From a virus: DNA of 45,376 nucleotides. Position numbers and translations under genes: made by a program. Below are positions 13,297 to 27,004 of this stretch, piece by piece. Where the stretch lies: the IMG/VR virus record IMGVR_UViG_3300045789_000176, positions 1-45,376 of that record; one strand, written 5' to 3'. Each line of letters starts with the position of its first letter. The stretch's first letter is position 1. The notes beneath the pieces are model-generated. The model saw only the letters and a list, made by a program, of their open reading frames with translations, made no database searches and had not been told where the DNA came from.

Positions 13297-13529
13297 TACT
13301 GCTGCTTATCCGGCATGTGCTGCAACCACTGGTGTGCTTCACGCCACTCTGTGATGCCGCGTTCAACGACTTCACGCTGGCTCTTGGGTACATTCAGCAG
13401 TATCAGTGTTCCGTACAGCATGTCTGCGTCGTCTGCTACACTGTCTGTGAACAGGCTTGCCCCTAGGCCACCACGTGCTGCGGTGGTTAGGGCTGCCTTA
13501 ACAGTGTGGATGATTACGTCTTCTTTCAT
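13296..13529 (-). CDS. Hypothetical protein, 77 aa
   Basis: Unrecognised small, mostly helical protein. The ATG has GGAG upstream and overlaps the previous stop (ATGA). Its own stop overlaps the nucleotidyltransferase start (TAATG). Tight coupling on both sides supports coding, but nothing shows the function. Confidence 0.75.
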   Translation of the reverse strand: MKEDVIIHTVKAALTTAARGGLGASLFTDSVADDADMLYGTLILLNVPKSQREVVERGITEWREAHQWLQHMPDKQQ

Positions 13530-13822
13530 CGAAATATCTCCAATTCAGCAGTACGTTTAACAACACCACTGTAATGCTCGCAGGCCAGCTTTAACTTGCC
13601 CGCTTGCAGTAGTTCACTGGCTATCTGTTTGGACATCTCCCTATTGACGTGATCAGAGTACCTATCGTCAGTTGCATACGGATTAATTACCTTGTCAGTA
13701 AGGTTCTCCACGTACACTCTAGCAGTCAACCCGCGCCGTCTAACCTCGTCAAGCAGGGCGCTGTCTAGAACCCCGTCGAACTCGCGACTGTACGGCATGT
13801 AGTTTACGATGGTTTTAAGCAT
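13526..13822 (-). CDS. Hypothetical protein, 98 aa
   Basis: Unrecognised protein, basic in its second half. The frame stays open well upstream, but the start is placed at ATG 13822 because AAGGAGAC lies just before it and the upstream part is a shadow of the ligase gene. It overlaps the ligase 3' end by 8 bases and the next gene by ATGA. Confidence 0.8.
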   Translation of the reverse strand: MLKTIVNYMPYSREFDGVLDSALLDEVRRRGLTARVYVENLTDKVINPYATDDRYSDHVNREMSKQIASELLQAGKLKLACEHYSGVVKRTAELEIFR

Positions 13823-14720
13823 CGGGTGTCTCCTTATCATCCCGCCACATCTGGAAGGTTGGTTCCCGAAGTGCGTCGTAGGTTTCATCGCCCTTGTGCT
13901 GGATTTGAGCCATGCGTTGCCACTGGGTATCCTTGTAGCCCGATGCGATTGCACCCTGCCACTGTTTCCACTCCTGCCACAATTCTGTGCGCTCTGCGTG
14001 GGACAACTTACCCGGCCCGATACCGATCTTTTTACCATTGTACATAGCCAGCAGTCCTCCAGCCATGCCCTTGAGATCACCGTACTTGTCCACGGCTTCC
14101 TCTACACCGACGATGAACAAGTCGATCATAGGCTTCTTGAGCATTTTCTGGTATCCCCAGCTACGGCCACTTAGGCTGTACCCGTCGTCATGACTGCGGG
14201 CTACACAGCCCTCAATCCGGGGGTTAAGTGCTTCGGTGCACTCCCAGAAGTCTGTCAGCTTGTCCTCTGTTGTGCAGAACTGCTGTTCTACCACTAGTAC
14301 TTGTGGGTGCACATCAGTGAACGTCCGGTTCATGTAGTCCAAACGGCTGGCGAACGGCTTGTTTACACTGCACTCGAAGATCATCAGCATCAGACCATCT
14401 TGTGGCTCTTGGCGTCGAATGATCCCACCTGTCTTGCGGAATGGTGCAAACGGATCAGCAGCCTGCACCACCTCCCCAACGATGTCCAAGTCACCAGCAG
14501 GTAGCAGGTACAACTCGCGCAGCTTACTCACAAATGCCGCAACTAGTGGCCCCACTGAGCCAACCGGCTTATCTTGGCGGGACACAATCGAGTGTAGCTT
14601 ACCGTCTACGATACGGATACGAATAGGCATACCGTCGTATTTAATGCTTGCGTACACTGGGAAGTTCAGCTTGCTCGGTGTGAACTTGCTCTGGGCCAGC
14701 GGGATAGTTGCGACACCCAT
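13815..14720 (-). CDS. ATP-dependent DNA ligase
   Basis: The 301-residue protein has the covalent nucleotidyltransferase motifs. Motif I is SIKYDGMPIRI with adenylated Lys27. IVGEVVQ is near motif III, EGCVAR is motif IV, and YQKMLKKPMIDLFIVG is motif V. The C-terminal part should be the OB domain. It would seal nicks in replicating and recombining phage DNA. Start ATG 14720 overlaps the stop of the small upstream gene (TAATG). Length is somewhat below T7 gp1.3 (359). Confidence 0.94.
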   Translation of the reverse strand: MGVATIPLAQSKFTPSKLNFPVYASIKYDGMPIRIRIVDGKLHSIVSRQDKPVGSVGPLVAAFVSKLRELYLLPAGDLDIVGEVVQAADPFAPFRKTGGIIRRQEPQDGLMLMIFECSVNKPFASRLDYMNRTFTDVHPQVLVVEQQFCTTEDKLTDFWECTEALNPRIEGCVARSHDDGYSLSGRSWGYQKMLKKPMIDLFIVGVEEAVDKYGDLKGMAGGLLAMYNGKKIGIGPGKLSHAERTELWQEWKQWQGAIASGYKDTQWQRMAQIQHKGDETYDALREPTFQMWRDDKETPDA

Positions 14721-18624: not shown

Positions 18625-19010
18625 AGTGCTGCCAGATACTCTTTAACCGCAGTAGAGTTCTTTTCACCGTCGTCGTCGTACCCACCAGTAGGCAGGTAGA
18701 AGTTGTCGGACTTCAAGTACTCTACTTCTGTAGCCTCAATCTCGCCCTGTCCCTCAAATCCGTAGCAGGAACAATGGGCACCGCTGATAACGCCGTAGTC
18801 ACCAGATGTGTTTACCAGCAAGTACCACGAAGAACTGTCGCAACCCCAGTTACCTACACTCTCGTAAGCTACTAGCACTTTCCAGCCTTCTAGGGATTTG
18901 CGCATAACTGAGCTGTCTTTGTCGGTGTCTTCGCTATACGCCACAGAGAGGTGTTCCAGAACGGCTTCTTCACTGTCACCTTCCATGTCTTCTAGGTATA
19001 ATGTTTTCAT
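18621..19010 (-). CDS. Hypothetical protein with HCSCYGFEGQ motif
   Basis: The 129-residue acidic protein has a conserved-looking core WGCDSSSWYLLVN...GDYGVISGAHCSCYGFEGQ at about 55-90. The three cysteines and one histidine could bind metal. Similar motifs occur in unnamed phage proteins, from memory, and none has a function I can state. AGAGGA lies 9 bases before the ATG. It overlaps the primase stop and helicase start by ATGA on both sides, so it is translated with the replication enzymes. Confidence 0.78.
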   Translation of the reverse strand: MKTLYLEDMEGDSEEAVLEHLSVAYSEDTDKDSSVMRKSLEGWKVLVAYESVGNWGCDSSSWYLLVNTSGDYGVISGAHCSCYGFEGQGEIEATEVEYLKSDNFYLPTGGYDDDGEKNSTAVKEYLAAL

Positions 19011-19795
19011 CTTGCGTCCTCTATATACTGTGCGATCTGGTCTAAGCCATACCGCTTTGGGTCCATGTCTGTCTGTATCCGCTTAGGTTCTATGCCAAAC
19101 GGCCCGAGCGCCTTGCGAAGTTTAACGTAACCGTTACGGCCTGCTGCATCACCATCGAACCAGCCCATAACTTCACGTCCATCAAGCATCACTGCTTGCT
19201 GCTGACTGACACTTGTGCCGAGTACAGCTAGGGCGTCGTATCCTGCTTCTGTGCATCGAATGGCTGATAGTACATCCTCGACAACGATAACAGGTGTTCC
19301 TCTATCGTCTCCCAGCTTGTACCACATAGCACCAACCGACCCACCGGGCATGAGGTACTTAGGCTTCCGTCCGCTGTCTGCTCTACCGGCCCATTGTCCG
19401 GTTGGGTTGCCATTATGAAGGATTGGAATGACGACTCTGCTGCTCTTAGCCGACCAGCTAACACCGTATAGTTGTGTTGCTCTCTCTGGAGTGATTCCCG
19501 CTCTGAGCGTGAAAAGGCGTGCCCAGCTTGGAACTTCTTCGGAGTCGAGAGGCACAACTGTAGGGTAAGGTGCTGTAACCTCTGCTTCATCGTGCTTACG
19601 CATTTCCAGAATGTCATGTGCGGACAGTCTGCCATGTGGCTCGAACTCGCTTTCTCCCGGACCCATGCAGCGGAAGCAGTGCATTGACACACCCTTGGGA
19701 TTGTTACTGATGTATGCTGATGCATCAGGCGTGCAGTGCGGTATTTTCCGCTTCTGGCCGAGCCGCAACTTCTTCGCTTGGTCCTGCCATTTCAT
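19007..19795 (-). CDS. DNA primase (TOPRIM, stand-alone)
   Basis: The 262-residue protein starts with a short zinc-binding region (HC at 20-21, CFRC at 40-43). A TOPRIM domain follows: VIVVEDVLSAIRCTEAG with Glu173, GWFDGDAAGRNG with Asp214 and Asp216, and TDMDPKRYG. It makes RNA primers for lagging-strand synthesis. As in phiKMV it is separate from the helicase. The start at 19795 lies 71 bases inside the preceding gene, but the conserved N-terminal zinc region requires it, and AGG lies just upstream. Confidence 0.92.
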   Translation of the reverse strand: MKWQDQAKKLRLGQKRKIPHCTPDASAYISNNPKGVSMHCFRCMGPGESEFEPHGRLSAHDILEMRKHDEAEVTAPYPTVVPLDSEEVPSWARLFTLRAGITPERATQLYGVSWSAKSSRVVIPILHNGNPTGQWAGRADSGRKPKYLMPGGSVGAMWYKLGDDRGTPVIVVEDVLSAIRCTEAGYDALAVLGTSVSQQQAVMLDGREVMGWFDGDAAGRNGYVKLRKALGPFGIEPKRIQTDMDPKRYGLDQIAQYIEDAR

Positions 19796-20087
19796 ACTTA
19801 CCTGCTTTCACCTGTTCAATGCGGCATGTTCCAGTGATGTGGTGCACACTGGAGGCATCGAAGTGCTGCGGTGCACCATACGGCAGGATAGCGATGAACG
19901 CTGGGCGCTTAGCACGACTTGACATATCGTACAAACGAACAACGCGGTCTTTATCTGGGTCAACTGACACCTTGATTTTCTTCTCAAGCATCATGTCATG
20001 GAACAACTCTACTCTGTGGTCGAAGTCCTCTACTGTTAAGTAAAGCGCCACTGCAAACCCACGCAGCAACTTACTGTCAGTATTCAT
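19725..20087 (-). CDS. Hypothetical protein, 120 aa
   Basis: Unrecognised globular protein. The ATG at 20087 has AGGAGAG just upstream and is preferred over an in-frame start at 20120 without a ribosome site. The last 23 codons overlap the primase start in another frame, so its C-terminus (Glu/Ala-rich) is constrained by, or an extension over, the primase zinc region. Function unknown. Confidence 0.8.
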   Translation of the reverse strand: MNTDSKLLRGFAVALYLTVEDFDHRVELFHDMMLEKKIKVSVDPDKDRVVRLYDMSSRAKRPAFIAILPYGAPQHFDASSVHHITGTCRIEQVKAGKYEMAGPSEEVAARPEAENTALHA

Positions 20088-20148
20088 AGTTTCTCTCCTG
20101 TGGTTAATACTAGGCGACACCGAAGTGCCGCCCAGAGTTAATTACAGA

Positions 20149-20574
20149 TTACTCGATACCGAGGCCAGCGAGTGCGTCTTCGTCGTCGGTGTTCACGTCG
20201 TCGGTGTTCACGTCGTCTTCTTCTGTGGACTCAGCGGCCTCAGCTTCTGCATCAGCAACGTCGGACTCAGCAGTCCAGTACGACTGGCGGGAAGGCTTGC
20301 CGATGTCACCGTTGTCACGTGCACGGTTCAAGTAGCCACGGATCGTGGTGTCAGCAGGCTCGGACTCCATTGCGCCCATCTTGTACAGGACGAAGATCAC
20401 CTGCTTCATGGTCAGTGCCTTTGGTGCACCGGACACAGCGGCCACAACAGCAGCGTACAGTGCTTCGTTCAGACCAGAGACGCGCTCTTTGTTCAGCGAG
20501 GCGACAACATCGTCAGGGACGCCAGCGGTGTCAGAGAAGTTGTACAGGTCAGCGGTGTTTACGGAAGTGTTCAT
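20149..20574 (-). CDS. Acidic protein with possible winged-helix region
   Basis: In this 141-residue protein residues 52-90 (LTMKQVIFVLYKMG... and TTIRGYLNRARDNGDIGK) read like a helix-turn-helix or winged-helix DNA-binding unit. The last 35 residues are strongly acidic with a DDVNT repeat encoded by a 15-bp tandem duplication at 20181-20210. CTAGGAGAG precedes the ATG. A transcription regulator, or a DNA-mimic tail on a DNA-binding head, are possibilities. Neither is shown. Confidence 0.75.
   Translation of the reverse strand: MNTSVNTADLYNFSDTAGVPDDVVASLNKERVSGLNEALYAAVVAAVSGAPKALTMKQVIFVLYKMGAMESEPADTTIRGYLNRARDNGDIGKPSRQSYWTAESDVADAEAEAAESTEEDDVNTDDVNTDDEDALAGLGIE
20181..20210. repeat. 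Two tandem 15-bp units
   Basis: CGTCGTCGGTGTTCA occurs twice in tandem with a partial third copy (20211-20217). It is in frame and encodes the DDVNT repeat in the acidic tail of the 141-residue protein, a likely replication-slippage site. Confidence 0.9.
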
Positions 20575-20639
20575 TAGTCTCTCCTAGAGATATATGTTGT
20601 GCCTTGCAGTTCATCTACTCGGTCACGGTTACGGGCTGA

Positions 20640-20737
20640 TGTGCCCAACAGGATGCAGCAGGTGGTAAGCCAGCCTTTAAAGGGGAGATACCACTCTCCA
20701 ACTCTACTCGGACTGCCACTGCACCCTGTTGGGCACA
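20640..20737 (-). ncRNA. 98-nt structured RNA element candidate
   Basis: A perfect 13-bp stem (20725-20737 with 20640-20652) closes about 72 nt that contain further pairings: TGCAG/CTGCA plus TGG/CCA with a bulge, a GGAGA/TCTCC hairpin, and a CCTTTAAAGG palindrome. It lies in the 182-base gap between two early genes. There is no T run, and it does not match tRNA geometry. It may be an independent small RNA or a 5' leader structure for the gene at 20149-20574. Confidence 0.55.
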
Positions 20738-20756
20738 CCGAAGTGCACCCGTTGTT

Positions 20757-21212
20757 CTAACATGCAGCGCCGTTGTATCCAGCGAACATAGCACGGTTTT
20801 CAGGCCAACCCTGCGGCGGTGGGCACCCATCTGGATTACCCTCAACGGTTGTCCAGTACATGCCCAGATCAGGACGGTACGTCCAGCCCTTGCACTGCAT
20901 AGCCTCGTCAGCGGTAACATTCTTCAAGCTGCCGATACCTTCGCGGCGACCATCAGCGTACACCAGCACAGCATACGCCTTGTTGCAGTCGGACACTTCC
21001 AGTACGCAGTCTTGATTATCCGCGTACCCCAAGGGTTTAACCACGAACACGTAGTCCTCAAGATTGCAAAGGAAGCTGACCTCTGTGACGCCCTCCCAGC
21101 TACCGATGCATGGAACAAGGCGGCCCACGGTGTCAGCACCGAAGAACATGCCAGTCAGTTGGTTAACCCGCAGCGGTGTCGGGTTGTCTATGCTGAAAAT
21201 AACGCGGGTCAT
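20757..21212 (-). CDS. Hypothetical early protein, 151 aa
   Basis: Unrecognised protein with mixed strands, seven cysteines and a Trp/Pro-rich C-terminus (GCPPPQGWPENRAMF). A consensus AAGGAGG lies 6 bases before the ATG, and the start overlaps the previous stop (ATGA), so expression should be strong. Followed by the structured element at 20640-20737. Confidence 0.82.
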   Translation of the reverse strand: MTRVIFSIDNPTPLRVNQLTGMFFGADTVGRLVPCIGSWEGVTEVSFLCNLEDYVFVVKPLGYADNQDCVLEVSDCNKAYAVLVYADGRREGIGSLKNVTADEAMQCKGWTYRPDLGMYWTTVEGNPDGCPPPQGWPENRAMFAGYNGAAC

Positions 21213-21583
21213 AGCTGCCCTCCTTCATAACTGATGCTAATCACATCTGGCTTCATTGGGTACGTGTAGAAGATGTACTCCCCCAGTTCATGCCCAATGT
21301 ACGGGCCGTGATCTATGTCCATGCCGTAGGTAGTGGTTGGGTTATGGTAGCCCTCCAGATCGCTAAGCGGGTCTAGCTCTTGCCCGCCACTTGCGTTGTC
21401 TGCGTAGTCTTGCATACCTTTGCGGGTCATGCGGCAGATTGCGAAGAACTCCGCACAGGCCGCCGTGTTGATAAATGTCGGGTCCACAGCGGTACTCGCA
21501 GCAGATTTTATCGCGGCGATAGCTGCGTTAGCTACTGCGCCAATACTCTGGCAGTGCTTTGCGTGATCTTTAGCCCGTTTCAT
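21209..21583 (-). CDS. Hypothetical early protein, 124 aa
   Basis: Unrecognised protein with an Ala-rich helical N-terminal half and an acidic, Tyr/Gly-rich C-terminal half. ATG 21583 is chosen because it follows the upstream stop by one base and has GGGTGG nearby. An in-frame GTG at 21592 is possible and would add three residues. ATGA overlap with the next gene. Confidence 0.75.
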   Translation of the reverse strand: MKRAKDHAKHCQSIGAVANAAIAAIKSAASTAVDPTFINTAACAEFFAICRMTRKGMQDYADNASGGQELDPLSDLEGYHNPTTTYGMDIDHGPYIGHELGEYIFYTYPMKPDVISISYEGGQL

Positions 21584-21584
21584 A

Positions 21585-21764
21585 TCAACCACCCAGTTGG
21601 TTGGTGTGGTGCAGGAAGAAATACGGCATGTCGGTGTTCATCAGCTTACCTAGGCGGCTCAGCTTCAAAGCACGGCGGCGGTTGTGCCGGTTGATAACAC
21701 CCCGAAACTCTTGGTCGTGGCTGTGGTTGAACTCTACTTTGTACGGAAGTTGTGCGTTGCGCAT
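21585..21764 (-). CDS. Small basic protein, 59 aa
   Basis: Starts MRNAQLPYKVEFNHSHDQEF and contains a strongly basic helix INRHNRRRALKLSRLGK, ending FFLHHTNQLGG. AAGGA lies 9 bases before the ATG, and the stop is one base from the next start. The basic helix suggests nucleic acid binding. That is inference, and the family is not recognised. Confidence 0.7.
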   Translation of the reverse strand: MRNAQLPYKVEFNHSHDQEFRGVINRHNRRRALKLSRLGKLMNTDMPYFFLHHTNQLGG

Positions 21765-22365
21765 TGTCTGCGATCCTTGTTGGCTTGCTCATCAGTGCAT
21801 AGGGTGCCACCCTAGTGCAGACACCAGCACTACACTGGTGTTTCGCGGTGCCTTGCAGTTTAAGTACATGCGGCTAGGTCGGGACGATACGACTGCGTAT
21901 CACTTGCGCTTGTAGTTGTATGGTGGGCATGATCAGTGCCACTTTAGACCAGTGCTACTAAGGAAGTGATTACAGCGGAGTTCCCTTTACACGGCTCATT
22001 CGTCCGTTAAGATGCGATCTATCGCGGTGCCATATGTGTTGCCTGCCCAACTGGCTGTGCACAGGGTTAACTAGTTAGACCATTGCTATCTCCTCTGTGG
22101 TATCCCCACTATAGTATTAACAGAACAATCACCGTGGTTTGCTCGTCAGCACAGGTCGCACTGTGAAGCGCCTGTGGACACAGGGTATTGGCTAACTCGC
22201 CGCACCTGTGTTTCGCATGTCTTTCACTCGTCAGTCTAGACCTCGTACCAGCGCAGTTAAGGTGGCACCACTATCCATCGTTGCACCCTTGCTCTAACGG
22301 GTACACTCGGGACCGTCTCTAATTTGGTTGCACACGTTCATGCTGCTACGCGCAGTTGAACTGGT
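21765..22365. other. 600-base gene-poor stretch with hairpins in the early region
   Basis: I find no convincing gene of 20 codons or more here. Visible structure includes an ACACCAG/CTGGTGT hairpin (21821-21841), a small AGGG/CCCT hairpin before it, and several CACAGG/CCTGTG pairings at about 22150-22215. A good ribosome site (GAGGAG, near 22090) leads only to ATG-GTC-TAA. An AT-rich TTAATACTATAGT (near 22112-22124, minus strand) could be a promoter. The region may encode untranslated RNA. Confidence 0.6.
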
Positions 22366-22638
22366 TCATTCGGTGCGTTCGCCGCTGCTGGGCTTCCGCC
22401 TCCCGTTGGCGGGCCACTCGTCGGGCCACCGCCTCCCGGCATCTGACATGCCAGCAATGTTGCTATTCCGAAGTACGGCGTGTTCCAGTTCAGCATAGTC
22501 AATCTCCGGTATTGGGTTACAAGTTAGGCAGGTGCATTTCATGCCCTCTGCCCGGCTTAGCATGATAGCAGCCGCTTTCGCAGAGACTACAACTACAGAC
22601 GACACGTCTTTTACAGGCTTACCGTACAAGTCTTGCAC
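22366..22638 (-). CDS. Hypothetical protein, 90 aa, with Cys motif
   Basis: Start GTG 22638 is chosen because AAGGAG lies 8 bases upstream. An in-frame TTG at 22644 is too close to that site. Residues near 35-41 read CTCLTC, a compact cysteine cluster that could bind metal. The C-terminus is basic and Arg/Trp-rich. It overlaps the previous gene by 20 bases. Function unknown. Confidence 0.7.
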   Translation of the reverse strand: MQDLYGKPVKDVSSVVVVSAKAAAIMLSRAEGMKCTCLTCNPIPEIDYAELEHAVLRNSNIAGMSDAGRRWPDEWPANGRRKPSSGERTE

Positions 22639-22855
22639 GTTCAATACTCCTTACAACTGCGGTTGCACAGTGATCTTTTTCACCTGCTAACCAGTCTATT
22701 AAGATAGTCCACATGCGAGAGTGCGGTGTGATCATTGCTTGCAGCCCCAGTATCCCGCACAGGGTCCAGCCCTCTGGTGTCCCTAGGAACTGCATACACA
22801 TAGCCTCGGATACTCGGGATAGGATTGGCCGACCAGTCATCGTGCGGATCGTCAT
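22619..22855 (-). CDS. Hypothetical protein, 78 aa
   Basis: Start ATG 22855 has GGAG 8 bases upstream and lies 2 bases after the preceding stop. It contains a moderately hydrophobic middle (TLCGILGLQAMIT) and a basic end. No family recognised. The ribosome site of the next gene lies inside its last codons. Confidence 0.72.
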   Translation of the reverse strand: MTIRTMTGRPILSRVSEAMCMQFLGTPEGWTLCGILGLQAMITPHSRMWTILIDWLAGEKDHCATAVVRSIERARLVR

Positions 22856-22857
22856 GC

Positions 22858-23136
22858 CTAGTCTCCCCATATGAGTGTGTAGGCATCGAAGTCCTCGTTA
22901 TCTCGCTCGTTCATGTTCATAGCCGATTGCAGCGCAGATATAACACCATCGGGTGCAGTCATGCGGTGCTCTACAGCCAGCTTCAATAGTTCTGCGGTAA
23001 GCGTGTCCATAGTAGGCTGGTTAAGTCGGGCCACCCTACAGGCATCGCACTCCTCTATAACCGCACCGGATAGTTCATACCCACGGCGCACCGCCTTAGA
23101 GTTGCGGGCAGTTCCGTATTTACATTCACATTTCAT
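22858..23136 (-). CDS. Hypothetical protein, 92 aa, with N-terminal Cys residues
   Basis: Begins MKCECKYGTARNS and has ECDACRVAR near residue 30, so CxC plus CxxC could form one zinc site. The rest is helical and acidic. ATGA overlap with the upstream gene. A small zinc-binding early protein acting on host targets is possible, but no family is recognised. Confidence 0.75.
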   Translation of the reverse strand: MKCECKYGTARNSKAVRRGYELSGAVIEECDACRVARLNQPTMDTLTAELLKLAVEHRMTAPDGVISALQSAMNMNERDNEDFDAYTLIWGD

Positions 23137-23360
23137 AGCCCGAACCTCTCTACGTCGGTGTCCGTGATGATGTGCCGCACCTTGCCGTCAATGAGTGTCA
23201 CTCTGTAACCCTTCATTTCACCTCTATCAGAGAAGCGGCCTACGCTGGCTTTGAAGTCTTTATGGGCAGCGAACCCAAGGCGTTGCACTGCTCGCTCAGC
23301 AGTCTCCCTCTTGATAAACAGAGCGTAGCCACCCTGTTTGCTTACATTCAGGCCGTACAT
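23133..23360 (-). CDS. Hypothetical protein, 75 aa
   Basis: Small alpha/beta protein with a basic N-terminal half (IKRETAERAVQRLGF) and a C-terminal strand pair ending in VERFGL. AAGGAG lies 6 bases before ATG 23360. Its ribosome site immediately follows the TAA of the overlapping membrane ORF at 23372. Function unknown. Confidence 0.78.
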   Translation of the reverse strand: MYGLNVSKQGGYALFIKRETAERAVQRLGFAAHKDFKASVGRFSDRGEMKGYRVTLIDGKVRHIITDTDVERFGL

Positions 23361-23371
23361 CGTGTTCTCCT

Positions 23372-23791
23372 TTAGGCGTAAGGTGCCATGTTATAAATCC
23401 AGTTCCCCTGTGCATCGAACTCAGAACCACGGGAAGTCTTTGAGAAAACCCTTTCGCACTTTGTGTGCTGCATCGCGGTCCAGCTTTTCCATGCGGCGGC
23501 GGGCTTCAAGGTCCATTGCATGAATGAGGTTTGGGGCTTGAAGGACAACCCGCTTGTGGAAGTCTTCAACTTCTTCAACAGGCTTAAAGTTAACGCCATG
23601 ACCAATCCCGACATCACCGCCACCAGCATGCCCGTTAAAGTGCCGTAGAATATCACCCCCATGCCAACCGTGAATAGCACGTCCGTAACCGTGGAGTATT
23701 TGATTAAAGTCGCCAAGCCGAACACCCTCGATGACGTCACTAGGAACGCTAGTACACTGCACAGGCTCATTAGTATGGCTGTAGTCAACAT
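23372..23791 (-). CDS. Membrane protein overlapping the kinase-like gene
   Basis: The first 75 residues hold two to three hydrophobic segments (about 2-25, 36-55 and 55-72) ending in LSLLKKL, a convincing inner-membrane protein. AAGAGG lies 8 bases before the ATG, and a TAA in the same frame lies just before that. The middle (76-120) looks like a frame shadow, while the end GSEFDAQGNWIYNMAPYA again looks genuine and stops next to the following ribosome site. It overlaps the kinase-like ORF in the +1 frame. Either an overprinted gene or a gene broken by frameshifts. Confidence 0.6.
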   Translation of the reverse strand: MLTTAILMSLCSVLAFLVTSSRVFGLATLIKYSTVTDVLFTVGMGVIFYGTLTGMLVAVMSGLVMALTLSLLKKLKTSTSGLSFKPQTSFMQWTLKPAAAWKSWTAMQHTKCERVFSKTSRGSEFDAQGNWIYNMAPYA

Positions 23792-24332
23792 TGCCGTAAC
23801 CTCTTAATTCTCTTTCAGCAGTCCCGCTGATAGGATCAATAACTACTAGGGTGCCGTCTGCACGGAACATGATGTTTCCGGCGTGCAAGTCTCTGTGGCC
23901 CCCGATATCCGCTACCCAAGTGAACAGCATATTCTGCTCAGTGGTGCCCAGCTTGAACTGTGCGCTGAGTAACTCGTTAAAAGCATCACCCATGACACTG
24001 TTTGTTCTATCGTAGGGCAGCAGCCGTTCCATCAGCACCACGGCTATGTTGTCAATTTCCGTTACCGAGTGGATAACCGGAAACAAGTCACCAACTAGTG
24101 TTCCGTCATGCACCGCCTCAATGAAGTCCCAGCAAGCATCAACACGCTTGTCCATGACCTTAACAACCACATCAGGTAGCTTCGGATCATATCCAACAGC
24201 TACTGCATAGAAGCTATCTTCGCCCAGCTTACTAAGCCCGAGGCTTTCAGCTTGGTTACAATACGGCACCCGTCTATAATTAGTTGACAGCGCCTCGGAT
24301 ACTCGGGTTGCTAGTTCATCAATCGGTGTCAT
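23421..24332 (-). CDS. Protein kinase-like protein
   Basis: Residues 1-170 form a small kinase-like domain: VVVKVMD with a probable ATP-binding Lys58, the hinge-like VVLMERLLPYD, catalytic loop HRDLHAGN (Asp148, Asn153) and VVIDP with Asp166 in place of DFG. T7 gp0.7 is an early kinase that modifies host RNA polymerase, so a similar takeover role is plausible. Residues 180-255 are His/Gly-rich and lie opposite the membrane ORF in another frame, so they may not be real. Residues 255-303 look genuinely coding. AAAGGA precedes the ATG. Confidence 0.75.
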   Translation of the reverse strand: MTPIDELATRVSEALSTNYRRVPYCNQAESLGLSKLGEDSFYAVAVGYDPKLPDVVVKVMDKRVDACWDFIEAVHDGTLVGDLFPVIHSVTEIDNIAVVLMERLLPYDRTNSVMGDAFNELLSAQFKLGTTEQNMLFTWVADIGGHRDLHAGNIMFRADGTLVVIDPISGTAERELRGYGNVDYSHTNEPVQCTSVPSDVIEGVRLGDFNQILHGYGRAIHGWHGGDILRHFNGHAGGGDVGIGHGVNFKPVEEVEDFHKRVVLQAPNLIHAMDLEARRRMEKLDRDAAHKVRKGFLKDFPWF

Positions 24333-24356
24333 GGCGTTTCCTTTATCAGGAGGTTA

Positions 24357-24464
24357 CTATGCTGTTAGCTGCATACAAGGCGAACACGGTAAACTGCGAA
24401 GGCTAACTCTGGCTCGCTTGCGGCTCTCGGTTAGTGCTTGAGGTGTCAGGTACCGTGTTGCCAT
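24357..24464 (-). CDS. Possible 35-aa basic peptide
   Basis: ATG 24464 opens a 35-codon frame rich in Arg and Ser (MATRYLTPQALTESRKRARV), ending in TAG at 24357. Only GGGG of the hairpin arm lies at Shine-Dalgarno distance. It fits the gap between the membrane microprotein and the kinase-like gene, but support is thin and it may be non-coding leader. Confidence 0.3.
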   Translation of the reverse strand: MATRYLTPQALTESRKRARVSLRSLPCSPCMQLTA

Positions 24465-24466
24465 GA

Positions 24467-24488
24467 ATACAGCCCCGCAGGGCTGTAT
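24467..24488 (-). other. Perfect 9-bp hairpin
   Basis: ATACAGCCC pairs with GGGCTGTAT around a 4-nt loop, directly after the 43-residue membrane gene. No T run follows in the minus direction. Likely an RNA processing or stabilising hairpin in the early transcript. Confidence 0.6.
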
Positions 24489-24490
24489 AG

Positions 24491-24622
24491 TTAAGTTATG
24501 AAGGCGACGAGGAAAAACACTACAGCTGCTACAGTGCACAGGATGAACATGCGATCTTGCCGCTTGCCCTTCTGTATCGCCTCTTGGCGCTTGCGCTGCC
24601 TGTATTCAGCAGCAGGTTCCAC
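24491..24622 (-). CDS. Membrane microprotein, 43 aa
   Basis: GTG start at 24622 overlaps the previous stop (TAGTG). The protein has a highly charged N-terminal half (YRQRKRQEAIQKGKRQDR) followed by one transmembrane segment FILCTVAAVVFFLVAFIT at its very end, so it should be a tail-anchored inner-membrane protein with a basic cytoplasmic part. Function unknown. Pattern and coupling support coding. Confidence 0.7.
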   Translation of the reverse strand: MEPAAEYRQRKRQEAIQKGKRQDRMFILCTVAAVVFFLVAFIT

Positions 24623-24783
24623 TAGACAGCCCGCTTGAACGCTGCCAGCATATCAGTCTCTTTGATACGCTTACCACGTTGATCCAGTTCAGCTACCTTA
24701 TCGACCCGCGAGGTCACGAGTTGCTTTGCGTTCAGCTTCAACTCAGAAGCGGGTGTCGTGTAATAGTTGCCTTTAGACATCAT
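24622..24783 (-). CDS. Small basic helical protein, 53 aa
   Basis: Begins MMSKGNYYTTPASELKLN, and the rest is a charged helix ending MLAAFKRAV. AGAGGG lies 5-8 bases before the two adjacent ATGs (24783 and 24780). The second has the better spacing. Stop overlaps the next GTG. No family recognised. Confidence 0.72.
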   Translation of the reverse strand: MMSKGNYYTTPASELKLNAKQLVTSRVDKVAELDQRGKRIKETDMLAAFKRAV

Positions 24784-24835
24784 ATAGCCCTCTTTTCAGG
24801 TATGCTCATCAGTGCAGGCTTACCAGTTCCTACAG

Positions 24836-24851
24836 ACAGCCCGAAGGCTGT
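24836..24851 (-). other. Hairpin with UUCG tetraloop
   Basis: ACAGCC and GGCTGT pair around TTCG on the minus strand, giving the very stable C(UUCG)G tetraloop. It lies just after the 24-residue membrane ORF. Its arms resemble the hairpin at 24467-24488. No T run follows, so it is more likely a transcript-stabilising or processing element than a terminator. Confidence 0.6.
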
Positions 24852-24855
24852 TTCG

Positions 24856-24930
24856 CTATTGTTCCCAGTGTTCTAGTGCCCAGAAGAACACCCAGAACAG
24901 TGCAGTGATCGTTACGAAGCCCGCCAGCAT
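24856..24930 (-). CDS. Membrane microprotein, 24 aa
   Basis: ATG 24930 overlaps the stop of the 61-residue membrane protein (TGATG). The product MLAGFVTITALFWVFFWALE plus HWEQ is a single aromatic-rich transmembrane helix. Size makes coding uncertain, but the coupled start and composition are suggestive of a small membrane effector. Confidence 0.5.
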   Translation of the reverse strand: MLAGFVTITALFWVFFWALEHWEQ

Positions 24931-25115
24931 CACCAACGCCGCACAGGTTGTGGCTTTGCGAACATTGCCAGCAGCCCAGCGATCAGCAGCAGGGCCACAA
25001 CAAGGACAAAGCCACCATACAGCGGTAGCAGCACAAGCCACCACGTCCACATGATCACCCCGCCCAGCTTTAGGCCAATGAATAGGACACCGAGTAGCAC
25101 CAAAAGCATGCTCAT
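24930..25115 (-). CDS. Small membrane protein, 61 aa
   Basis: Two hydrophobic segments (about 2-24 and 26-50) separated by a Trp-rich turn, with a short basic end KPQPVRRW. The start overlaps the previous stop (TAATG). It could act on the host envelope, for instance in exclusion of other phages. That is only a guess from topology. Confidence 0.7.
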   Translation of the reverse strand: MSMLLVLLGVLFIGLKLGGVIMWTWWLVLLPLYGGFVLVVALLLIAGLLAMFAKPQPVRRW

Positions 25116-25600
25116 TAGTGCATTACCTCGTATGTGTTGAGTGCCCGCAGCTTCTCGACCATAGCTGGATCAACCTTGCTGTCGGTGCCGCACTCTTTGA
25201 GGTCGCGTTCCATCTTGGCAACCAAGCCCTTGATCAGCGCCAGTGGATCAGTGATAGCCTGATAGTCCTGTTCGGGCTTAAAGGCAGTCCACATAACATC
25301 GGATGCACCTTCTAGGTCAAACTTCTTGCCCTTTTTGTAGATCATCAGCTTGCTATCAGCATCGAACACCACGTTGCCGAACGACTCGACGTATTCACGC
25401 AGTGCATTGACGCGGCTACCCTTATGCATTGCAGCAATCAGGGCATTCAGCAATGATGGATCGTTATGCAGGCTGCTATGCTGCATAGTGGACAGTGCAG
25501 CAATCTGGATATCACGATCCAGCTTGGCACCACGTGTTTGGATGGACCCGATAGCTTTGATCATCAGGTTCTTATCGGTAATCAGTTTATAGTTAGCCAT
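25115..25600 (-). CDS. Conserved early protein, 161 aa
   Basis: Start ATG 25600 has GGAGAG upstream. The frame is open to 25732, but that part lacks a ribosome site. The beginning MANYKLITDKNLMIKAIGSI and the stretch KGSRVNALREYVESFG belong to a family I recall as widespread in T7-like phages, of unknown function. The C-terminal third is helical and acidic. It is the third gene of the early operon. Confidence 0.85.
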   Translation of the reverse strand: MANYKLITDKNLMIKAIGSIQTRGAKLDRDIQIAALSTMQHSSLHNDPSLLNALIAAMHKGSRVNALREYVESFGNVVFDADSKLMIYKKGKKFDLEGASDVMWTAFKPEQDYQAITDPLALIKGLVAKMERDLKECGTDSKVDPAMVEKLRALNTYEVMH

Positions 25601-25665
25601 TGTTACTCTCCAGTTAATAGCGTTGGGTCTTATACAATGCACCACTACAGTGCACTGATTAAGGC

Positions 25666-25887
25666 TCAAAGATACAGCGGGTGTCCTGCCATGATCCGAT
25701 CGGCTTCTAGCAGGCTGAATACACCACGCCACTCCATTGCAGTGATATCCACATCTTTCATACGAAGTTTATGCATACAGTCGATGTAATGATCATACGC
25801 CGTGTTCCAATCAGGGTAGCACCGCGACCACACAGCGTCTTGTTGTGGGTGCTTATAGGCAAAGCGCCATTGAATAACCGTTTTCAT
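25666..25887 (-). CDS. Hypothetical early protein, 73 aa
   Basis: Start ATG 25887 has AGGAGG 9 bases upstream and overlaps the stop of the preceding membrane gene (TAATG). Soluble, with aromatic residues through the first half (WRFAYKHP, CYPDWNTAYDHYIDC). No family recognised. Confidence 0.8.
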   Translation of the reverse strand: MKTVIQWRFAYKHPQQDAVWSRCYPDWNTAYDHYIDCMHKLRMKDVDITAMEWRGVFSLLEADRIMAGHPLYL

Positions 25888-26063
25888 TAGTAGCGGCCTC
25901 CTGTAAGATAGGAAGTGAACGCCATTGCAGCATACAGGATGATAGTGAACGTCCAACCTGCTGTAGATACCAGCAGAAAGAACAGGATAAACCCGACGAT
26001 CATCACAGTGGCGATAATCAGCATAGTAGCAATGTAGCCACGGTTATTCCATAGAAAGTCCAT
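25887..26063 (-). CDS. First early gene: two-helix membrane protein, 58 aa
   Basis: Starts MDFLWNNRGYIATMLIIATV. Two hydrophobic segments (about 11-33 and 37-52) end in a short polar tail TGGRY. AGGAG lies 9 bases before ATG 26063. As the first gene behind the presumed early promoters it should be made immediately on infection, a position where phages often place host-takeover or exclusion factors. Confidence 0.78.
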   Translation of the reverse strand: MDFLWNNRGYIATMLIIATVMIVGFILFFLLVSTAGWTFTIILYAAMAFTSYLTGGRY

Positions 26064-26081
26064 ATCAAGTCTCCTGTTTGG

Positions 26082-26130
26082 GTGTTATAGCGTAAGATAC
26101 ACCTCTCGGATGCACCTAACTCTATAACAC
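26082..26130 (-). other. Leader hairpin before the first early gene
   Basis: Perfect 9-bp inverted repeat (GTGTTATAG at 26082-26090, CTATAACAC at 26122-26130) with a 31-nt loop, 19 bases upstream of the first gene. It could set the 5' end or the stability of the early message. Confidence 0.5.
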
Positions 26131-26466
26131 TAGACTAGGATCAGCTTGTTACACGCTTCACAGCGTCACGGTTGGCCATGCATAGCAACTAAGGTGCCTA
26201 GTACATAGTGTTAGTTTGATTTGTATGGACGCTCTGACCGTCGAGGTGTCAGCTTTGTCCCTGCCCGATAGTCGGTGCCACTGGTTTACTTATCACAGGC
26301 CGGTTCCACGGTAATCCTGTTCACATACGGCGGTTATAGAGCCGCTTATCTCTTTGCACTTTCAGATCGGGCAGCAATCAGCCCTATATCTTTATACCGC
26401 GATCTGTGGCGGTAGCCGGACCGTCAACCTATTACAGCATCAAGTCTTAACCCGTTTCGTATCTAG

Positions 26467-26495
26467 TACCTAGTGCATCGGGTTCTAGGTGTCAA
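26467..26495 (-). promoter_or_regulatory. Early promoter-like repeat A
   Basis: Minus strand TTGACA (26490-26495) followed after 16 bases by CTAGGTA (26467-26473). It is one of three aligned units with an 88-bp period. The -35 box is perfect, but the downstream box is a poor match to TATAAT, so host sigma-70 recognition is uncertain. Confidence 0.5.
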
Positions 26496-26554
26496 CCCCG
26501 CTTAGTAACTTATTTTTAAGACTAGTTAGCAAAGTCTTTCGTGTCTCTATCTCT

Positions 26555-26583
26555 TACCTAGTTGTTATCGGGTTAGGTTTCAA
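26555..26583 (-). promoter_or_regulatory. Early promoter-like repeat B
   Basis: TTGAAA (26578-26583), 16-base spacer, CTAGGTA (26555-26561). Spacer and flanks (CCTAACCCGATA, AGAGATAG) align with unit A, showing common origin. Confidence 0.5.
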
Positions 26584-26642
26584 GTCCCGTTTAGATATTT
26601 TATTCACCGTCTAACTCAGTGCCGTATCTTGTTCGTCTATCT

Positions 26643-26670
26643 TACCTAGTTACCTTTGAACCTATTACAA
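26643..26670 (-). promoter_or_regulatory. Early promoter-like repeat C
   Basis: TTGTAA (26665-26670), 15-base spacer, CTAGGTA (26643-26649), followed by AGATAGACGAA like unit A's AGATACGAA. It is the farthest of the three from the first early gene. Confidence 0.45.
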
Positions 26671-26771
26671 GTCCTAGTCGCTAGTTTATTCTAACAGTCC
26701 CGTTTGTTTTCTTGCCTAGCAAGTATCCCGTTCCTGTTGATTAAGAGATAGGTACTGCCGTTGTGGTTACA

Positions 26772-26942
26772 ATGGTTTATAAGTGATTTATTACTAAGTA
26801 TATGATAAGTGTATGATATGATTGATAAACTAAGTGTAAGATAAGTGTATATACTCTGATTACACCCTAGTTATTACTAAGTATATGATATGATTACATA
26901 ATCGGGTTATAATACAGTTATGATACATGGTTTATAAGTGAT
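26772..26942. repeat. AT-rich block with perfect direct repeats
   Basis: ATGGTTTATAAGTGAT occurs at 26772-26787 and 26927-26942. TTATTACTAAGTATATGATA occurs at 26788-26807 and 26871-26890. Several shorter AAGTGTATGATA-like copies lie between. The block is far richer in A and T than the rest of the genome and lies next to a phage promoter candidate, as T7's primary origin does. Confidence 0.7.
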
Positions 26943-26980
26943 CCAAACAGATAAAACAGTTTAAAAACAGTGGGTTACAC

Positions 26981-26996
26981 CTAAAGACAGATACTG
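26981..26996 (-). promoter_or_regulatory. Shared 16-mer downstream of the phage promoter (pause-like)
   Basis: CAGTATCTGTCTTTAG on the minus strand, identical to 4845-4830. It contains ATCTGTC followed by TTT, close to the ATCTGTT class II pause/termination signal of T7 RNA polymerase used at the T7 concatemer junction. Also pairs partly with the transcript start (GACAG/CTGTC). Function is inference. Confidence 0.45.
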
Positions 26997-27004
26997 AAAG
27001 CTGT

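Follow-up and report, generated by a model that had tools for sequence, protein, structure and literature searches.

One stretch of DNA in a T7-like phage most likely makes two proteins. A kinase gene appears to have been extended at its 3′ end into the neighbouring membrane-protein gene, with both proteins probably made from separate starts. Both frames are open over the same DNA, and each has its own plausible ribosome-binding site and start. The membrane-protein gene has homologues in eight phages and contigs, the kinase frame is open to residue 303, and codon choice, with moderate support, favours the two frames together. Of the two readings offered by the original prediction, true overprinting or a gene split by indels, these observations better support the former.

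The window analysed here is virus record IMGVR_UViG_3300045789_000176 at its whole length of 45,376 bases, with its genes on the minus strand. Its terminase, DnaB-like helicase, DNA polymerase, and tail and internal virion proteins have counterparts in T7-like podophage families, and the closest named relatives found by protein are MedPE-SWcel-C56 (genus Kafavirus) and the Paracoccus phages ParMal1 and ParKuw1, all Autographiviridae. The window is a contig of a Kafavirus-like Autographiviridae phage. Several of its early genes (window 20000–27000) have a codon usage unlike that of the rest of the genome (own-codon z −1 to −3.8). Overlapping frames also occur elsewhere in the window. Two minus-strand ORFs at 13526–14080 and 13815–14720 overlap by 266 nt; the longer is a DNA ligase homologue with full-length matches, and the shorter, with weaker matches to ligase-gene regions in relatives, is probably partly a ligase shadow. 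A 165-codon ORF at 19228–19725 lies wholly inside a primase-like gene (19007–19795) and is also open in several relatives, its similarity being accounted for by the conserved gene that contains it. Positions 22803–22818 and 24292–24307, at the starts of two different genes, share 16 identical bases (RVSEA codons), a match at chance level (E 0.036).

The two frames of the overlap have the arrangement originally described. ORF1 (23421–24332, minus strand, 303 amino acids) starts at ATG 24332, with AAAGGA upstream, and comprises a kinase domain (residues 1–180; 23793–24332) containing the motifs DLHAGN (148–153) and VVIDP (163–167), followed by a C-terminal extension. ORF2 (23372–23791, minus strand, 139 codons), which encodes a small early membrane protein, lies in the +1 frame relative to ORF1 and begins at ATG 23791. 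The sequence preceding its start is gaatTAAGAGGttacggca, in which the ribosome-binding-like site AAGAGG (23796–23801) directly follows an in-frame TAA. The overlap spans 371 nt (23421–23791). At its downstream border, the ORF1 stop codon TGA arises inside conserved Ser-Glu codons of ORF2 (TCT GAG). ORF2 itself ends in GSEFDAQGNWIYNMAPYA-TAA and is followed at once by the next ribosome site (AAAGGAG, ATG 23360), also as predicted.

ORF2 consists of a membrane part (residues 1–74; 23570–23791) with hydrophobic stretches at approximately residues 1–31 and 38–75, a linker (residues 75–122; 23425–23569) and a conserved C-terminal motif, SEFDAQGNWIYNMAPYA (23375–23425). In a tblastn search, ORF2 matched C56 (E 5e-16), ParMal1 (5e-12) and ParKuw1 (9e-12) over residues 1–138, and the membrane part was also matched in contigs L016, L051, L053 and L054 and in Stappia phage SI01. 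Among the eight distinct homologues, five carry the terminal SE(F/Y)..G.W(I/V)YNQAPY in frame with the membrane part, as ORF2 does. ORF2 also matches PHROG 19152, a family without an assigned function, and its hydrophobic N-terminal part holds the motifs T.DV.FT and GT.TG. The sole difference lies in the linker that joins membrane part and end motif, which is roughly 15–30 residues longer than in the relatives and for which no homologue was found in either frame. The gene order in L016 and L051 (a phrog_1448 gene, the ORF2 homologue and a homologue of the 75-aa gene of the window) is that of the window without the kinase, and no kinase match was detected near ORF2 homologues in the homologous loci or in 16 related records. 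Judged by these homologues in eight phages and contigs, with the C-terminal motif included, and by the conserved gene order, ORF2 is a real gene and older than the overlap. ORF2, whose first 75 residues had been called convincing from the sequence, has full-length homologues with both ends in one frame.

ORF1 matches PHROG 15752 (T7 gp0.7 kinase; E 6.5e-10) and contains the catalytic motifs D.H..N and then V.DP together with a kinase fold. BLASTP aligned KP32 gp0.7 with ORF1 residues 148–180 (DLHAGNIMFRADGTLVVIDPISGTAERELRGYG). An AlphaFold model, built from a shallow alignment with eight distant kinases from viral contigs, has pLDDT values of 57–88 up to about residue 170 and below 50 for residues 169–270, which are predicted to be disordered; a single-sequence model was uninformative (pLDDT 37). 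The Foldseek hits of the ORF1 model were phage protein kinases, the best at E 3.6e-10, and, below threshold, solved kinases in the PDB (E 2.5e-5). By homology, then, ORF1 is a kinase of the T7 gp0.7 family, as its first 180 residues had suggested. For ParKuw1_00025 (L004 6148–6819, 223 aa), which faintly resembles a kinase N-lobe, a relationship to kinases was not supported: it matched no family, and its similarity to ORF1 was not significant.

Ten of the 17 kinase-family members inspected end 1–12 residues after the V.DP motif, corresponding to ORF1 residues 168–180, and the remainder, gp0.7 included, carry on with unrelated C-terminal parts. The kinase domain is therefore complete just where ORF2 begins, at residue 181. 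Beyond residue 180 there was no alignment with KP32 gp0.7, and so no sign of a gp0.7-like C-terminal shut-off domain. No homologue of residues 181–303 was found, and no source of the 256–303 segment was found in phages, the window or the fetched loci. Since the kinase homology ends at about residue 180 and stand-alone relatives stop near there, residues 181–303 are a lineage-specific extension. Alignment of both frames to homologues, as had been proposed, thus gives full-length relatives for ORF2 and homology that stops at residue 180 for ORF1, the opposite of a 303-residue frame conserved throughout with no membrane-protein matches.

The first part of the extension, ORF1 residues ~181–255 (23567–23790; pLDDT 27–44), was originally described as a His/Gly-rich shadow, and comparison with relatives bears this out. 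Codons for membrane segments carry T at their second position, so the kinase-frame shadow rarely has stops. This frame is stop-free over the membrane part in five of eight kinase-less relatives, where the shadow is likewise rich in His, Gly and Arg. The simulated chance of its openness is 0.2 given the ORF2 protein and 0.46–0.58 for the relatives; the opposite shift contains seven to nine stops in each of five genes checked. Openness of residues 181–255 was accordingly dropped as evidence of coding after this control, and the segment is an ordinary shadow of membrane codons. More generally, when the shadow frame of membrane-protein codons is open, this alone is a poor sign of coding, because most relatives that lack the kinase have it open too. 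L016 17185–17748 is a clear instance of a long shadow frame: although no kinase lies upstream, the frame that is one base ahead of the membrane gene has no stop for 187 codons and continues in register into the gene that follows.

The second part, ORF1 residues ~256–303 (23421–23567), is charged, includes the peptide VVLQAPNLIHAMDLEAR and is predicted to form a single long helix (residues 266–299; pLDDT 66–77). To compare the frames, we used a codon model trained on 21 long genes of the window and took the kinase-frame minus the membrane-frame score (A−B). This value is +96 for ORF1 residues 1–180, a strong kinase-frame preference; +4.4 over 74 codons of the membrane part, which is undecided; +8 to +9 over 43–48 codons of the middle (ORF1 residues ~255–303), favouring the kinase frame, where membrane-only controls never exceed −4.3; and −16.4 for the last 16 codons, favouring the membrane frame. 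Coding sense thus does switch frame along the region, and the last 50 or so residues of ORF1 do look coding, both as first noticed. The best kinase-frame stretch, residues 256–303, falls on the linker of the membrane protein, which is not conserved. Over the whole 121-codon overlap, A−B is +13.6, which lies outside both single-frame distributions (kinase alone, 75 ± 16.5 with a 1% point of 31; membrane alone, −89 ± 17.7 with a maximum of −31.5). For 73 membrane codons, the kinase-frame minus own-frame score is +6.3 in the window, compared with −19.5 to −41 in five kinase-less relatives.

Synonymous resampling gave a signal in both directions, in two frame tests that share data and are not independent and whose figures are uncorrected for the several segments scored. 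With the ORF2 protein fixed, the kinase frame has z 3.2–3.3, reached by 0 of 77–83 control windows (mean −0.39, s.d. ~1.07, maximum 2.8), and the chance of that frame being open at all is 0.007–0.02. With ORF1 fixed, the membrane frame has z 4.0–4.8, reached by 0 of 77–83 controls (mean 1.1, s.d. 1.0, maximum 3.6–3.7), and the chance of its being open is ~0.001; the calibration weakened the first, uncalibrated form of this result, because in that shift control genes score above zero on average. The atypical codon usage of this phage's early genes tempers the dual-frame signal, although early-gene codon weights leave it in place. Within-gene codon permutation is weaker than resampling, with z 1.7 from ORF2 to the kinase frame (controls −0.45 ± 1.03) and z 2.5 from ORF1 to the membrane frame, exceeded by 10 of 75 controls. 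Together, these comparisons give moderate support for coding in both frames over the overlap.

These data bear on what the 123-residue tail is. The overlap may be real and the tail still a neutral by-product of stop loss that is under no selection, perhaps tolerated or clipped, a reading we regard as possible and the most serious of the alternatives. It is consistent with the lack of any homologue of the tail, the predicted disorder of residues 169–270, the resemblance of the His/Gly-rich part to any such shadow and the weak permutation tests. Against it, the kinase-frame codon choice lies beyond that of all 77 controls and is unlike that of the five relatives, and the last 34 residues are modelled as a confident long helix, albeit from a shallow alignment.

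The split-gene reading explains the same region by compensating indels, introduced by sequencing error or recent mutation: the true middle of the membrane protein would be the kinase-frame VEEVEDFHKR...KGFLKDFP, lying between two frameshifts, and a third would end the kinase near residue 180. The last element survives in part, as the kinase domain does end near 23795–23815. The middle, moreover, fits the kinase frame far better than membrane-only controls allow, with a score that one coding frame alone could give (1% point 6.7), and the ORF2 linker has no homologue in either frame. However, two or three exactly compensating events would be needed in one small gene, and a comparison of the proteins of eight relatives and contigs with the window gave 173 minus-strand matches, none of which revealed a frameshift on that strand (four plus-strand pairs were shadows of real genes). 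The segment borders have no long homopolymer. The membrane frame is also open through the middle, for which the chance is 0.011–0.021 given the ORF1 protein, and its score there was exceeded by 0 of 221 controls under one weighting and 7 of 221 under the other. Because the ends of ORF2 are already in register, as in its relatives, and the contig is free of coding-strand frameshifts, the indels are not supported, and we consider this explanation improbable. That ORF2 is not a gene, leaving the 303-residue kinase as the sole product, could be argued only from the weakness with which codon usage favours the membrane frame, and is refuted by the homologues with their C-terminal motif and conserved gene order.

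The simplest history is that the upstream gene, here the kinase gene, lost its stop codon and was lengthened at its 3′ end; long same-strand overlaps of this phase arise mostly in this way (PMC3887535). The membrane gene would be the older partner, which acquired a stand-alone gp0.7-type kinase gene as its direct upstream neighbour. Near residue 180, where the kinase naturally ends, a stop codon would have been lost or have been absent from the outset, and translation would continue for 123 codons, in the +1 phase, through the membrane gene to the TGA supplied by the Ser-Glu codons. Translation to residue 303 is expected because ORF1 has no earlier stop. The membrane protein would be initiated at its own AAGAGG and ATG, and both proteins may come from one transcript, on which ribosomes translating the kinase would pass the ORF2 start in another frame. 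Constraint may be split along the overlap, with the membrane helices and final motif held in ORF2 and the 256–303 helix in ORF1. No relative sharing the overlap was found by single-protein scans of viral contigs with ORF1 and ORF2, by DNA similarity to phages or by a genome-contig scan; alignments of the terminase, helicase, membrane-family, kinase-family and phrog_1448 proteins found relatives of the phage, none with the overlap.

A stronger form of this history, which we hold only tentatively, is that overprinting of the membrane-protein gene has recently given the kinase a de novo C-terminal domain that is functional, with constraint divided between the membrane helices and end motif on one side and the new long helix on the other. 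Should both frames be translated and under selection, this would be a young overprinted domain whose ancestral state, the membrane gene alone, is kept in several relatives, and the pair would illustrate how a gene already under constraint takes on a second frame. The de novo tail would then parallel the second domain of T7 gp0.7, though built from other material.

Comparison with known systems places each partner. In T7 gp0.7, a kinase is joined to a distinct C-terminal part of ~10 kDa that shuts off host transcription (PMC4858673). The kinase motifs of T7 gp0.7 and KP32 gp3, D-H-GN-M and V.DP, align with ORF1 to residue 180, and by analogy ORF1 may phosphorylate host proteins. ORF1 likewise has a kinase part and a C-terminal part, but the latter is unrelated in sequence and encoded over another gene; a gp0.7-like shut-off role for it is speculation. 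Stand-alone small phage kinases (Vibrio phage R16F_249, NVP1170O_126 and IMG/VR loci L043–L049) share the fold core and motifs of ORF1 and stop 1–12 residues after the DP motif, whereas ORF1 runs on for 123 codons. The Kafavirus-type small membrane proteins (MedPE-SWcel-C56 cds4, ParMal1_00019 and ParKuw1_00021; PHROG 19152) have the membrane part and W(I/V)YN.APY end in common with ORF2, which differs in its longer linker (by 15–30 residues) and in the kinase frame that crosses it. The pair as a whole is a gene overlap of a kind that is known, though uncommon. As in the long phase-1 same-strand overlaps described previously, for which this phase predominates, the upstream gene extends 3′ into its neighbour (PMC3887535); at 371 nt the overlap in the window is long by comparison, and it covers nearly all of the conserved membrane part of the downstream gene.
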